Source: Streptococcaceae bacterium ESL0687 (lineage in GTDB: Bacteria; Bacillota; Bacilli; Lactobacillales; Streptococcaceae). From it: a DNA stretch of 64,000 nt. A model generated the notes under the pieces. That model saw nothing but the letters and a program-made list of their open reading frames with translations, was not told where the DNA came from and did not search any database. The translations under genes and the position numbers were made by a program. The DNA is taken from contig CP113940.1 of NCBI GenBank assembly GCA_029392475.1, forward strand, positions 620,001 through 684,000, in the 5' to 3' direction. This document shows positions 3,498 to 63,263 of the stretch, piece by piece; the first letter of the stretch is position 1; every line of letters begins with the position of its first letter.

Positions 3498-4082
3498 TTA
3501 TTGGATTGGGAACTCGACTGCCTTAACGATTTTGTAAGAATTATTAAGGAAATCTGCAATTATTGGTTCACTACTTTCAGTATAAAAGACATAGTGGACA
3601 GAAACTTTTTCACCAGGTGCGATGTCAACTGACAGAGGGTCTATATACTCATCAACCCCATCGCCTTCTACCATTCCATCACCTGGAAGACTAGTTGAAT
3701 CCAATGTATTTGGGCCAGCTCCGTTTTTTTGTTCGAAAACTAGTAATAAGCTACCTAGTTCATATATTGGAAGTGTCCTGTCTGTTTTATTTTCCAAAGT
3801 CACATCGATTTTTACTGCAGGGTCGTTGATAATATCTATTGCTTTTGAAACATTGAGAATTTGAATGCTTCCACTCTTGTTAGTAAAGGTCTTGGTTGCT
3901 TCGTCATAAGTGTAGCCGTCACTTGCCTTATCCTTAGTTGAACTTTCACTAGTTTTAGAAGTTTCAGAGCTTACTGAAGAGCTTGCACTTGTCGAAGATT
4001 CGGTGCTTTTACTTGTCGAAGAACATCCTCCAAGAACCAAAAGGGATAAAAGGGCTAGAGCCATATAATTTTTCTTTTTCAT
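3498..4082 (-). CDS. Lipoprotein, DUF5067-like, copy 2
   Basis: The 194-residue product has a lipoprotein signal with lipobox LGGC (Cys20), a Ser/Thr-rich linker (about 21-55) and a C-terminal beta-rich domain that begins with a GYTYDEATKTFTNKSG block and contains DPLSVDIAPGEKVS, consistent with the DUF5067 immunoglobulin-like family of streptococcal and lactobacillar lipoproteins. It is paralogous to the gene at 4107-4703, only 24 bases upstream, so the pair arose by tandem duplication and is cotranscribed. AGGAGG precedes the start. It is probably anchored on the outer face of the membrane; role unknown. Confidence 0.8.
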   Translation of the reverse strand: MKKKNYMALALLSLLVLGGCSSTSKSTESSTSASSSVSSETSKTSESSTKDKASDGYTYDEATKTFTNKSGSIQILNVSKAIDIINDPAVKIDVTLENKTDRTLPIYELGSLLLVFEQKNGAGPNTLDSTSLPGDGMVEGDGVDEYIDPLSVDIAPGEKVSVHYVFYTESSEPIIADFLNNSYKIVKAVEFPIQ

Positions 4083-5538: not shown

Positions 5539-6732
5539 ATGGCAGACAAAAAACAAGTACCAAGACTTAGATTTAGGGGATTTGAAGGAGAGTGGGAAGA
5601 AGATAAATTTGATAATTTATTTGATTTGTCAGTTCCGACTAATTCATTATCACGTGAAAATCTAGTATATGATGAAGAAAAAGTTAAAAATATCCATTAT
5701 GGTGATATTTTGACAAAATTTAATTCTGTTTTAGATGCTTCAGATAAGATGATTCCATATATAAGGGGAGCATCTGAGGATAAGTTTAAAAAATCTTTTT
5801 TAAACGATGGAGATATTGTCATAGCAGATGCTGCCGAAGATGAGAGTGTTGGAAAATCCATAGAAGTACGTAATGTTAAAAAACATCCTATTGTAGCAGG
5901 TTTACACACCATTGTAGCCCGTCCAAAAAATATTTTTGCTCCCTTATATTTAGGGCATTATCTTAATAGTAAAATTTATCATGAATCATTATATAGATTG
6001 ATGCAGGGTACAAAAGTTTTATCATTGAGTAAGACAAATATATCTAAAACTTCAGTCTGTTTTCCAGATTATAAAGAGCAAGAAAAAATCGGTACCTTCT
6101 TTGCTCAGCTTGATAAATTGATTGCCTTACATGAAAAGAAACTGGCAGACCTTAAAGAAATAAAAAAAGGCTACCTCCAACAGATGTTCCCAGCCCCAGG
6201 GCAAAAAATCCCACAACTCAGATTCCAAGGATTTGAAGGGGAGTGGAAGAACGTAATCTTTAATGATATTTTGAAGTTCTATTCAGCTAAGCAATATATC
6301 TCAGGTATTAGTTCTGATGGAAAATTTCCAGTTCTTAAACAAGGTGACAATCCTTTAGATGGATATGCAAATGGAGAACCTTTCAAAGACTACAGTAAAG
6401 TAGTTGTTTTTGGAGATCATACTTTATCCATATATAAACCAAATACACCATTTTTTATATCTACCGATGGGATTAAAATTTTATCTTCTAACTATATGGG
6501 TAGTGATTATTTATTTTATTCTTTAGAGCGATTTAAACCACATTCAGAAGGTTACAAAAGGCATTTAACTATCTTGAAAAATACATTATTATCTTTTACT
6601 CTCGATTTTGAGGAACAAGAAAAAATCGGCACCTTCTTCGCAAATCTTGATAAGAATATCAATCAGGCAGAGGGAAAACTTAACCAGCTTAAAGCCCTTA
6701 AAAAAGGATTTTTACAGCAGATGTTTATCTAA
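5539..6732 (+). CDS. hsdS: Orphan type I restriction specificity subunit
   Basis: HsdS determines the DNA target of type I restriction-modification complexes. The protein (397 aa from ATG 5539) has the classic two-repeat plan: target domain 1 (about 20-175), a conserved helical spacer starting EQEKIGTFF, target domain 2 (about 230-350) and a second conserved helix. A frame also opens at ATG 5521, but AGAGG at 5527-5531 sits seven bases before ATG 5539. No hsdM or hsdR is adjacent, so it must work with subunits encoded elsewhere or be inactive. The target domains are much richer in A/T than the conserved parts, as expected for exchanged domains. Confidence 0.92.
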   Translation: MADKKQVPRLRFRGFEGEWEEDKFDNLFDLSVPTNSLSRENLVYDEEKVKNIHYGDILTKFNSVLDASDKMIPYIRGASEDKFKKSFLNDGDIVIADAAEDESVGKSIEVRNVKKHPIVAGLHTIVARPKNIFAPLYLGHYLNSKIYHESLYRLMQGTKVLSLSKTNISKTSVCFPDYKEQEKIGTFFAQLDKLIALHEKKLADLKEIKKGYLQQMFPAPGQKIPQLRFQGFEGEWKNVIFNDILKFYSAKQYISGISSDGKFPVLKQGDNPLDGYANGEPFKDYSKVVVFGDHTLSIYKPNTPFFISTDGIKILSSNYMGSDYLFYSLERFKPHSEGYKRHLTILKNTLLSFTLDFEEQEKIGTFFANLDKNINQAEGKLNQLKALKKGFLQQMFI

Positions 6733-60222: not shown

Positions 60223-61170
60223 ATGGAAGTTATAAAATTAGAAGATTATAATGATAAAAGGGATTTACTTGTTAAAGATGAGATTAATTCCACGGTCCTT
60301 GAAAGTTTCATAAGCTACCTAGATACAAGTCCTAAAACCATTGAGACTTATACTAGAGCTCTCAGACAAATGTTTAAGTATTTTGCCTTAAACAATATTA
60401 AAAATCCCCAAAGGGTTGATATTTTAGCTTACAGGGAGGGACTTAAGGATAGTGGGCTTAAGCCGACAACGGTTCAAAATTACATCATGGCAGCCAGGCT
60501 TTTCTTCCAGTGGACAGCTCAAGAGGGAATTTATCCTAATATCGCTGATAGGGTTAAAGGAGCAAAGCTTGATAAAAATCATAAAAAGGATTATCTAACA
60601 GCTGATCAGGTCAAACACATTATTGAAAGTATTAATCAAGATACTGAAGAAGGACTTAGAAATTATGCCATCTTTTCTTTAATGATTACAGGTGGTTTGA
60701 GGACTATTGAAGTTTCAAGGGCTGATATCAAAGATTTAAGAATCCTTGGCCGTAATACTGTGCTTTATGTTCAGGGTAAGGGCCGGGAGGAGAAGACAGA
60801 GTATATCAAGATAAGTGCTCCTGTAGAAAAAGCTATAAGAGAGTACTTAGCCAGCCGGGAAGATTTGGAAGAAGACAGTCCACTTTTTGTCTCAACAAGC
60901 AATAATAGTAGGGGGAAAAGACTTACTACGAGGTCCGTTTCAGCCATTGCTAAAAAAGTTATGAAGGAAGCAGGCTTTAATAGTGAGCGACTAACAGCCC
61001 ACAGCCTCAGGCATACGGCTGTAACCCTTGCCCTTCTTGCGGGACATGACATAACAGAGGTTCAGCAGTTTGCAAGGCACTCAAGTCTAAACACAACTAT
61101 GATCTACAATCACGCCCTCGATCGTGATAAAAATGGCTGCAGCGACGGAATATCGAATTCTATTTTTTGA
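60223..61170 (+). CDS. Tyrosine recombinase / integrase
   Basis: A 315-residue tyrosine recombinase with a SAM-like N-terminal core-binding domain (about 22-105) and a catalytic domain with Arg160 (GGLRTIEV), the beta-hairpin lysine in VQGKGREEK, His260-x-x-Arg263 (HSLRHT), His286 and nucleophile Tyr295. It is shorter than XerS (356 residues) and does not look like it. No excisionase, att repeats or cargo transfer genes were seen, so it could be a stand-alone recombinase or the relic of a small integrated element whose body is the following 2.3 kb. AAGGAGG precedes the ATG. Confidence 0.88.
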   Translation: MEVIKLEDYNDKRDLLVKDEINSTVLESFISYLDTSPKTIETYTRALRQMFKYFALNNIKNPQRVDILAYREGLKDSGLKPTTVQNYIMAARLFFQWTAQEGIYPNIADRVKGAKLDKNHKKDYLTADQVKHIIESINQDTEEGLRNYAIFSLMITGGLRTIEVSRADIKDLRILGRNTVLYVQGKGREEKTEYIKISAPVEKAIREYLASREDLEEDSPLFVSTSNNSRGKRLTTRSVSAIAKKVMKEAGFNSERLTAHSLRHTAVTLALLAGHDITEVQQFARHSSLNTTMIYNHALDRDKNGCSDGISNSIF

Positions 61171-61297: not shown

Positions 61298-61888
61298 TTA
61301 GTTAAGCTCAAAAGTGATTTTACTTTTGTTTGAAAACATATTCCCGTTATAGAGAAGTTTGTATTTATCGCCAACCTTTGCTTGACCGATTAGACTACCA
61401 GTAACACTTCCATCTTTAGCTAAAGAACCAGAATTAAGAGAATCGTTGACAAATTGCTCCCCAGAATCAGCCATTACAAATTCAGTCAAGTTAGTCTGAT
61501 TTCCATTGCTGTCTAATTTGAAATCGTATGGATTATAGTCTATTGTGTCATCGCCTTTGTTAGTAATTGTTATATTCACGATAACATATTGATTTCCTTC
61601 CTTAGGTTTTGAGTATTTTGTACCTGATGAATATTCAACACTATTAACTTTGAATTGAACGTTGTTATGTTCGACAACATCACCAATCTTGAAAGTAGTC
61701 TGCTCAGATTTTTTTTCAGATGATGCAGTTGAAGAACCATCTTCAACTTTTTTCGCTTTAGAAGTTCCTAGAGAACCTCCTATAATGAATATCAGAATAA
61801 CAACGATCGCCCAAAACCAAACCTTTTTATAAAAAGGTTTTTTCTGAACGTATGTATTTCCATTTTCGTCTGTAATTTTTTTAGCCAT
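61298..61888 (-). CDS. Membrane-anchored DUF4352-like protein
   Basis: A 196-residue protein: short cytoplasmic N-terminus, one membrane helix (about 22-43; VWFWAIVVILIFIIGG), a Ser/Lys-rich linker and an extracellular DUF4352 immunoglobulin-like domain (about 70-196; KEGNQYVIVNITITNKGDD and the later YDFKLDSNGN). AGGAGG before ATG 61888 sets the start. Proteins of this kind are frequent in mobile and phage-derived DNA of lactic acid bacteria, function unknown. Its 5' region is one of two near-identical cassettes that also encode a tiny opposite-strand RNA. Confidence 0.8.
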   Translation of the reverse strand: MAKKITDENGNTYVQKKPFYKKVWFWAIVVILIFIIGGSLGTSKAKKVEDGSSTASSEKKSEQTTFKIGDVVEHNNVQFKVNSVEYSSGTKYSKPKEGNQYVIVNITITNKGDDTIDYNPYDFKLDSNGNQTNLTEFVMADSGEQFVNDSLNSGSLAKDGSVTGSLIGQAKVGDKYKLLYNGNMFSNKSKITFELN

Positions 61889-61917
61889 AAACAAGCCTCC
61901 TATGATATAATATTTTT

Positions 61918-61961
61918 GTATGCATTACATCCTAGTCTCTGATTGCCATCAGGGGCTTTTT
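61918..61961 (+). ncRNA. Candidate mini-RNA A (cassette copy 1)
   Basis: TGATATAAT (61903-61911) forms an extended -10 on the plus strand, directed away from the DUF4352-like gene. About 16 bases after the expected start lies a ten-base hairpin AGTCTCTGAT/ATCAGGGGCT (61934-61957) with a four-base loop followed by five T. The predicted RNA of about 44 nt is complementary to the region upstream of the DUF4352-like gene. The same cassette recurs at 62341-62410. Confidence 0.5.
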
Positions 61962-61967
61962 ATATTG

Positions 61968-62333
61968 TTAATTAATCGATACCTTAAGATTTTCGGATTC
62001 CTTCAGAGCTTTGATAATACAAATGATTCCTAAAAAAATTAAAATAGCAATGAAAAAGATACGCATACCACTTAATCCTTCGGCAAATGACGAATAGACA
62101 TTCCCTGCTTGTTGATAATAGCTTTCAGCTATACTGTCCCCGCTCACAGATCTGATTTTACTCATAGTGTCACTTGCATCATGCATGCTATTAGTACTAC
62201 CAACAATTACAGCGTGGACCCTCCATGCGGTATAGAAAAGCCATAAGCTAGTAGCTGAGTAAAGTATAATAATAATCTTCTTTGCTATAAATTCCTCTTG
62301 TTTATTACTACCATTAGTAACATTTTTCTCCAT
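61968..62333 (-). CDS. Small two-helix membrane protein
   Basis: A 121-residue protein with membrane helices at about 18-43 and 88-110 and a central extracytoplasmic loop rich in Ser, Asp and Gln. No family recognised. AGGAGG precedes the ATG as part of the duplicated 5' cassette shared with the DUF4352-like gene downstream on the same strand. Confidence 0.6.
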   Translation of the reverse strand: MEKNVTNGSNKQEEFIAKKIIIILYSATSLWLFYTAWRVHAVIVGSTNSMHDASDTMSKIRSVSGDSIAESYYQQAGNVYSSFAEGLSGMRIFFIAILIFLGIICIIKALKESENLKVSIN

Positions 62334-62363
62334 AAAACAAGCCTCCTATGATATAATAATTTT

Positions 62364-62410
62364 GTAAATACAGTACATCCTAGTCCTTGATTGCCGTCAG
62401 GGACTTTTTT
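62364..62410 (+). ncRNA. Candidate mini-RNA B (cassette copy 2)
   Basis: Same layout as mini-RNA A: TGATATAAT (62349-62357), then hairpin AGTCCTTGAT/GTCAGGGACT (62382-62405) and a run of six T. Compared with copy A, four of ten base pairs differ, and all keep pairing as G-T/A-T/C-G alternatives when read as plus-strand RNA but would become A-C mismatches in the minus-strand reading. This supports a plus-strand transcript. Confidence 0.5.
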
Positions 62411-62539
62411 GCATTTAGTTTAATTATATCAATAAGAAATTAGGATATGTCATTTTGATCTAAATTAGTACACAAATAGTACCTTCTAGCCATTTTTTTT
62501 TAAATTTTTTGATTTTGTTAAAAAATGCAGAGGGAAATA

Positions 62540-62638
62540 ATGGAAGTTTTATTTTTGGGCCCAAATGATCGATTTTTGTTATTTGGCTCATTTTTTAAGA
62601 AAATATTTTTTTGCCTTCGACATTTACAAAAATTATAA
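62540..62638 (+). CDS. Possible 32-residue hydrophobic peptide
   Basis: GAGGG (62530-62534) five bases before ATG 62540 opens 32 codons for a Phe/Leu-rich, weakly basic peptide (FLLFGSFFKKIFFCLRH in its middle). Chance is a fair alternative in such AT-rich DNA. No family recognised. Confidence 0.2.
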   Translation: MEVLFLGPNDRFLLFGSFFKKIFFCLRHLQKL

Positions 62639-62960
62639 AATATTTTAATAAATAATTAATATAATTATTATATTTAATTAAATAAAATATATTTATAAAA
62701 ATAATAAAAAATTAACTAATTTAAATATATTAAAAAATATATTTAATAATTAACATCTACTTCCGCAAATAAGCATTAGCGGAAGTAGGAAATAAATGCA
62801 AAATTAAGATATTTACTATATATTTATTTGAATAAACAACTATTTAAAGATACAAAAATAAAATATAAATAAAAGATTTAAATTAAGTAAATAAAATAAT
62901 AAACACTTACATTAAAATATAAACTTCCATCTTTTTTCTACTTTTCTTAAATAAAGTTAA
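62620..62960. other. Extremely AT-rich gene-free block
   Basis: About 340 bases are almost entirely A and T and carry no gene. The only GC-containing element is a perfect ten-base inverted repeat CTACTTCCGC/GCGGAAGTAG (62757-62788, 12-base loop). A related sequence AAAATGCAGAnnGGAAA lies on either side at about 62522 and 62985. The whole gap 62411-63263 (850 bases) has no other feature I can support. Confidence 0.6.
62757..62788. repeat. Ten-base perfect inverted repeat in AT-rich block
   Basis: CTACTTCCGC and GCGGAAGTAG flank AAATAAGCATTA. There is no T run, so it is not an obvious terminator; it could be a protein-binding or recombination site. Confidence 0.65.
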
Positions 62961-63263
62961 TAAAACAAAAAAATCAATCTGTAAAATGCAGAAAGGAAAG
63001 TATTTAGGCAAATCATGACGAAGAAACTCTTAGATTAGGCCCCATGTTTCAAATCGAATGGACTAGCCGGTGTAATTTATGTGGTATCCTTTTCTTATAA
63101 GTTTAAGTATCATTTAAGTAGATCATAGAAATGAATAGTAGGCTAAAAGAAGTGCAGCATAAGTGCAATATCTAGCTTTACTTGGTTAAGTATTTCTGAT
63201 ATTATATGCCTGTTCTAAGGGAAATTTAGATGAACGAGCTATATGAAAGCAGGAGTTTTAACT

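Follow-up and report, generated by a model that had tools for sequence, protein, structure and literature searches.

The two cassettes described here lie upstream of two minus-strand genes in a 64-kb stretch of DNA (referred to below as the window). They are best read as complete miniature transcription units, each set opposite its gene and each belonging to a phage-carried family, that would act as cis-acting antisense brakes on the adjacent gene; taken as a whole, we give this reading about an even chance of being right. Conservation and covariation of the sequence delineate the predicted promoter, start, and terminator of each copy. The cassettes are presumably transcribed, and cis-antisense control of the adjacent gene is the most likely role that we infer for them.

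Copy 1 (positions 61889 to 61961, plus strand) and copy 2 (62335 to 62410, plus strand) each combine the Shine-Dalgarno (SD) sequence of the minus-strand gene with an antisense promoter, a tail, and a terminator, and they showed 88% identity across ∼77 bp in a whole-cassette alignment. The window contains the 23-mer AAACAAGCCTCCTATGATATAAT at exactly two places (61889 to 61911 and 62335 to 62357; shuffle expectation, 0.00), and only these two cassettes were found in the whole genome (1,465,505 bases, one contig). A covariance model, R1, matched copy 1 at 61903 to 61964 (60.5 bits, E = 1.3e-7) and copy 2 at 62349 to 62412 (62.3 bits, E = 6.7e-8), both copies having gone into building the model. 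The AGGAGG motifs of the genes at 61298 to 61888 and 61968 to 62333 lie on the minus strand at 61896 to 61901 and 62342 to 62347, respectively. On the plus strand, the extended −10 element TGATATAAT, assigned by family-wide conservation, is found at 61903 to 61911 in copy 1 and at 62349 to 62357 in copy 2; in copy 1 it is preceded by TA, i.e., a TRTG −16 element, and by a −35-like TAGCCA (61882 to 61887) with a spacer of 18. If transcription starts at the purine 7 nt past the −10 element, as the family suggests, the predicted antisense RNAs would be 44 nt (61918 to 61961, plus strand) and 47 nt (62364 to 62410, plus strand) long. Each would end in a terminator hairpin of 10 pairs with a 4-nt loop, AGTCTCTGA-TTGCCA-TCAGGGGCT at 61934 to 61957 and AGTCCTTGA-TTGCCG-TCAGGGACT at 62382 to 62405 (both plus strand), followed by a U tract that reaches 61961 and 62410, respectively. 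Terminator-like sites in the region numbered 4, against 0.4 expected. This layout of two near-identical cassettes, each with an AGGAGG for its gene, a plus-strand extended −10 element, a ten-base hairpin, and a U tract, had been proposed in a first-pass annotation made from the sequence alone, and all of it was borne out. A sense promoter inside the cassette was rejected, no consistent −35/−10 spacing being seen by eye. A near-palindrome in the 5' tail of the RNA (61914 to 61931 and 62361 to 62379), present as TGTATGCATTACA, TGTAAATACAGTACA, and TGTAAATACATTACA in the window and sister-species copies and absent from the streptococcal members of the family, might be a candidate operator.

The stems of the two copies differ at 4 of the 10 pairs (U-G/U-A, U-G/C-G, C-G/U-G, and U-A/U-G, the last at the loop). 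As the first-pass annotation had stated, all four differences keep pairing in the plus-strand RNA only, and in both copies this RNA folds better than its complement (−13.1 and −13.8 kcal/mol versus −5.8 and −9.1 kcal/mol for the minus-strand RNA). The same differences had been offered as covariation; within the window, however, they are one-sided, that is, consistent changes with no double compensation, and two-sided, strand-specific covariation was found only in the wider family. Among 22 diverse members, 95.5% of the stem cells were paired, changes on both sides of the stem numbered 25 versus 5.5 in shuffles, and the covariation score was 0.422 versus 0.149 after shuffling, a level reached by 0 of 500 shuffles. 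A G-U pair on one strand reads as A-C on the opposite strand. Across 37 distinct hairpins, the 5 pairs outside the fixed core comprised 136 Watson-Crick pairs, 38 G-U pairs, 11 others, and 0 A-C pairs; selection therefore acts on the plus-strand (antisense) RNA. A chance origin of the cassette pair was rejected on the basis of the 23-mer, the covariation, the G-U bias, and the terminator statistics.

The promoter was assessed in a way that avoids circularity, by scanning for the hairpin plus a T run with the promoter left unspecified. Exact TGNTATAAT was found at 24 to 27 nt in 48 of 69 unique sites, and with one mismatch in 12 more, part of this 69-site set overlapping contigs first picked by TATAAT. 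The contigs new to the scan contained degenerate −10 forms (TATACT, TAAAAT, TACACT, TACAAT, and TAGAAT); the variants mostly keep TGNTA..T, the invariant −10 letters, and nearly all retain the key T, A, and T. The 52 non-redundant members showed a purine 7 nt past the −10 element (51 members), a T immediately before +1 (47 members), YRTG-type (TRTG-like) bases ahead of the −10 element, and a similarity to TTGACA that peaks at a spacer of 17 to 18. These independent marks show, at the level of sequence, that a predicted vegetative promoter and its start site are conserved in the family. As a predictor of antisense units, the sigma promoter alone had only a small effect and was set aside: among the matches listed, GGAGATTATANCATG was accompanied by an antisense terminator at 5 of 120 sites (0 of 120 for an anagram), the difference being slight because most of the contigs came from unrelated phages.

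A search of the Streptococcaceae revealed one copy in a sister species of the genus (91% identity to copy 2) along with weaker matches in a second genus of the family; these relatives share the loop ATTGCCGT, TGNTATAAT, and the spacing with the window copies. Because the sister-species copy is so close to copy 2, the two window copies may have arrived separately. The term "duplicated cassette" used in the first-pass annotation says too little, the copies being a pair of members of a family carried by phages, and local duplication is no more than a possible origin. In viral contigs, the pattern TATAATN{12,40}CTGATTGCCGTCAG gave at least 120 matches, and the −10-to-hairpin distance was 24 to 27 nt in 80 of the 81 distinct cores among the matches listed, though 12 to 40 nt was permitted. 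When one member was compared with phage records by BLAST, 122 records were returned, 92 of them from Streptococcus phages, under a permissive E limit at which the weakest include chance matches. When species genomes were scanned with the exact pattern, many Streptococcus species proved to have clear members, and Periweissella, Sporolactobacillus, and Salinicoccus had one each; most of the remaining matches are without TGN and a U tract and are due to chance. For its part, R1 matched 29 of 295 Lactobacillales genomes at an E value of ≤0.01. In a class-wide sample of Bacilli, at an E value of ≤0.002, its matches were confined to the Streptococcaceae, which bounds the false-positive rate; Bacilli outside the Lactobacillales gave no R1 match in that sample, the Salinicoccus and Sporolactobacillus sites being exact-pattern candidates.

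The cassettes are part of a large, mobile family found in temperate phages of the Lactobacillales, mostly those of Streptococcus. Both window copies carry its defining features (extended −10 element, spacer of 24 to 27 nt, UUGCC-loop hairpin, and U tract), and the same features were recovered by the hairpin-only scan without the window copies. The search of the genome and of other lactic acid bacteria that the first-pass annotation had suggested turned up a hairpin with a conserved stem that recurs across Streptococcus phages and other Lactobacillales, rather than an isolated and unconserved one.

In the window, the cassettes adjoin two phage-type accessory genes. The gene beside copy 1 (61298 to 61888, minus strand) encodes a DUF4352 protein with an N-terminal membrane segment (Pfam E = 2.9e-23), related to phage PHROG 806 (phrog_806, E = 9.2e-35) and more weakly to the superinfection-exclusion PHROGs 4980 and 8545. 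That beside copy 2 (61968 to 62333, minus strand) encodes a 121-aa putative membrane protein without an assigned family, and copy 1 occupies the whole gap between the two genes, since the stop codon of the latter lies 7 nt beyond the copy 1 U tract. A tyrosine recombinase with a phage integrase domain (60223 to 61170, plus strand) adjoins the two genes. A match to a Vagococcus plasmid was discarded; it covered the N-terminal region of the protein only, and the cassette is absent there. Upstream of both genes, ∼750 bases (62450 to 63200) are very A+T rich and almost without a long open reading frame (ORF), and the antisense strand of the DUF4352 gene contains a terminator-like hairpin (61727 to 61748, plus strand) with a TATAAT-like site ∼40 bases later.

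In annotated phages, the cassette sits in gaps between opposite-strand genes, as in Javan11 and IPP69, where it follows an antirepressor gene (in IPP69 it also precedes a ParB-like gene), and in PH15, Javan553, K13, and Oenococcus phage phiOE33PA. Streptococcus phage IPP69 also contains, at 3653 to 3738 on the minus strand, the Rfam "skipping-rope" RNA (RF02924, 50 bits). The genes starting beside the cassette on the other strand belong to ∼20 unrelated families, including an HTH protein, an anti-repressor, a helicase, a RecE-like exonuclease, and an HNH endonuclease, a variety that fits a cis-acting device. With gene starts called by simple ORF and SD rules, an SD-supported start was present on the opposite strand at 59 of 64 family sites, compared with 128 of 220 TGNTATAAT sites without a terminator (P = 7.5e-8). 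Judging from their predicted neighbors, most members oppose lytic genes and some oppose lysogeny-module genes. In the sister species, the cassette follows repressor-like and metallopeptidase-like genes (assigned by reading the sequences) in a lysogeny-module operon, and because of this relative the silencing of lytic genes in the lysogen cannot be a general description.

Identical cassettes were joined to differing flanks on both sides among the members, which in sequence terms is the pattern of modular exchange. This switching, and the way in which the cassette fills the gap between neighboring genes, would also suit a role in the directional insulation of phage modules and as the joint at which they recombine, with promoter activity mattering little. 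Such a role is quite improbable as the main one: an insulator needs no promoter, yet conservation extends to the −10 element, the TRTG element, and the +1 purine, and the excess of G-U over A-C shows that one RNA strand is under selection.

According to the antisense-brake reading, vegetative RNA polymerase would start at the extended −10 element beside the ribosome-binding site of the gene, head away from the gene, make ∼44 to 47 nt, and stop at the cassette's own terminator, which would prevent read-through into the neighboring gene. The RNA would then pair with the leader just upstream of the SD sequence to give a duplex open to cutting, and/or polymerase on the antisense promoter, over the first codons of the gene, would impede sense transcription. 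The start codon was at or on the gene side of the −10 element in 138 of 138 scored cases and, since the RNA would begin 7 nt past that element, only the leader upstream of the SD sequence would be covered. The RNA of about 45 nt antisense to the leader that had been put forward in the first-pass annotation agrees with the predicted 44 and 47 nt, with the restriction that it cannot cover the SD sequence or the start codon. This geometry excludes a block of ribosome binding by the antisense RNA, neither element being reached in any member.

The lack of the SD sequence and start codon in the predicted RNA also speaks for transcription interference alone, with polymerase at the antisense promoter acting as a roadblock where the gene starts and the terminator quickly ending an RNA that is a by-product. 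The promoter and terminator are constant across the wider class of antisense units while the hairpin sequence varies by lineage, as interference would have it, and antisense promoters reportedly tune expression. Interference does not, however, require the UUGCC loop, which is conserved on different stems, and we consider it possible rather than probable as the sole mode of action.

The recurrence of the UUGCC(G/A) loop on different stems, not needed in cis, also argues against a purely cis-acting device. Most searches prescribed the loop, which hence could not be scored from them; among the R1 matches, UUGCC-type loops were present on unrelated stems at five loci. The RNAs might instead act in trans through the shared loop, e.g., by sponging up an RNA or a protein of the host or the phage. 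In the same contigs, the loop was present in just 5 of 192 terminators lacking an exact extended −10 element, 4 of these 5 having a degenerate one, a count in favor of trans action that is weakened by the choice of contigs, made partly by the UUGCC loop; in addition, the copy 1 RNA is predicted to pair with the copy 2 leader and vice versa. On the other hand, lineages of the same plan bear unrelated loops, and the single-stranded tails of 52 members are U rich but otherwise not conserved in sequence, so trans action seems unlikely. The YUNR loop motif mediates kissing in some plasmid antisense RNAs; by inspection, UUGCC(G/A) does not fit it, and this candidate was rejected.

In the same phage contigs, 20 more sites combine TGNTATAAT with a terminator of a different hairpin, 18 of them antisense to an SD-supported gene start, compared with 128 of the 220 terminator-less sites (P = 0.004). 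Several form one lineage located before DUF1492 genes (48 Watson-Crick, 15 G-U, and 0 A-C pairs), and Streptococcus pyogenes prophages 315.1 and 315.6 carry such antisense units too, with antisense sites at record position 5578 of 315.1 and at 3820 and 5294 of 315.6. At the five loci of the DUF1492 lineage, the hairpin repeats the gene's own SD-start region, and in some members 13 bp can form between the mRNA leader and GGAGACAGAGAGUG. Modeled pairing of the ribosome-binding site in this lineage (0.68 versus 0.55 in shuffles, n = 5) may reflect a lock on translation, which the antisense RNA might release. The 13-bp pairing, which takes in the SD sequence and the start codon, and the pairing values of this lineage are what favor a more general mechanism in which folding of the mRNA leader covers the ribosome-binding site, with the antisense RNA opening or closing that fold. 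The UUGCC family, for its part, gave no signal of such sequestration (0.493 versus 0.506 in shuffles, 41 members, P = 0.49), and we hold this mechanism to be very improbable. Tentatively, and with somewhat less than even confidence, we suggest that temperate phages of the Lactobacillales may use a general device, namely, antisense promoter-terminator units of ∼40 to 50 nt, in several independent hairpin lineages, placed at many unrelated gene starts as interchangeable cis brakes and swapped as modules in phage recombination.

No Rfam 15 covariance model matched in the window at its gathering score (the best sub-threshold match reached 20.3 bits versus 44 needed), and no Rfam 15 family was found at the cassettes of 11 related loci. 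A full-text search for the 14-mer CTGATTGCCGTCAG returned no paper, and a keyword search of open-licence full text returned no description of the UUGCC cassette family. The earlier remark that no such family is described therefore stands with respect to Rfam, although antisense phage RNAs of a similar general plan are known (PMC6431027). The antisense RNAs known from phages include OOP, sar, and aQ (PMC12197685), and the cassette has, by prediction, the promoter and terminator of its own opposite a target gene that characterize the OOP/sar kind. Lambda OOP (pO to tO, ∼77 nt) is, like the cassette RNA, a short phage RNA with its own promoter and terminator that lies opposite the early operon, between two early genes (PMC12197685). 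It overlaps the cII coding sequence, whereas the cassette RNA, a shorter one that recurs next to many unrelated genes, would cover only the leader upstream of the SD sequence. P22 sar (68/69 nt) is likewise an antisense RNA with its own promoter in a phage operon, where it controls the neighboring gene (PMC12197685). Several cassettes lie directly after an antirepressor gene, which recalls sar. The latter pairs with the ant ribosome-binding site; the cassette RNA, unlike sar, would reach no ribosome-binding site.

A family of antisense small RNAs (sRNAs) upstream of integrases was seen by dRNA-seq in four prophages of S. pyogenes S119 (SR034, SR071, SR086, and SR106), and its authors suggest that it may help to silence the integrase (PMC6431027). 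These RNAs resemble the cassette in being intergenic, in streptococcal prophages, and antisense to the following gene, and differ from it in their length (∼100 nt), their extra hairpin, and their single type of target. The integrase-upstream regions of 315.1 and 315.6 (1374 and 1258, respectively, both plus strand) are near-identical, each with TGTGATATAAT, then ∼100 nt and a terminator, and fit the RNAs of that report (PMC6431027). R1 gave no match to these integrase-upstream RNAs of 315.1 and 315.6 and matched other antisense sites there. The SAS/ESAS of cluster K mycobacteriophages are, like the cassette, short conserved intergenic elements with inverted repeats at many phage gene starts (PMC11373665); the ESAS promoter, however, faces the gene, and SAS/ESAS are without an antisense terminator unit. 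Thus, OOP, sar, and the S. pyogenes integrase-antisense RNAs are precedents, and none of them is the UUGCC family.

To our knowledge, the known antisense phage RNAs are single cases, each tied to one target. The cassette is a reusable part found beside ∼20 gene families, so a result obtained with one would inform many phages, and, although phages of pneumococci and other streptococci commonly carry it, Rfam does not include it. Should the RNA be made, few complete transcription units known from phages would be smaller than these cassettes. The finding bears on annotation, that is, on what fills these intergenic gaps, and on whether the antisense promoters at phage gene starts are selected or noise.
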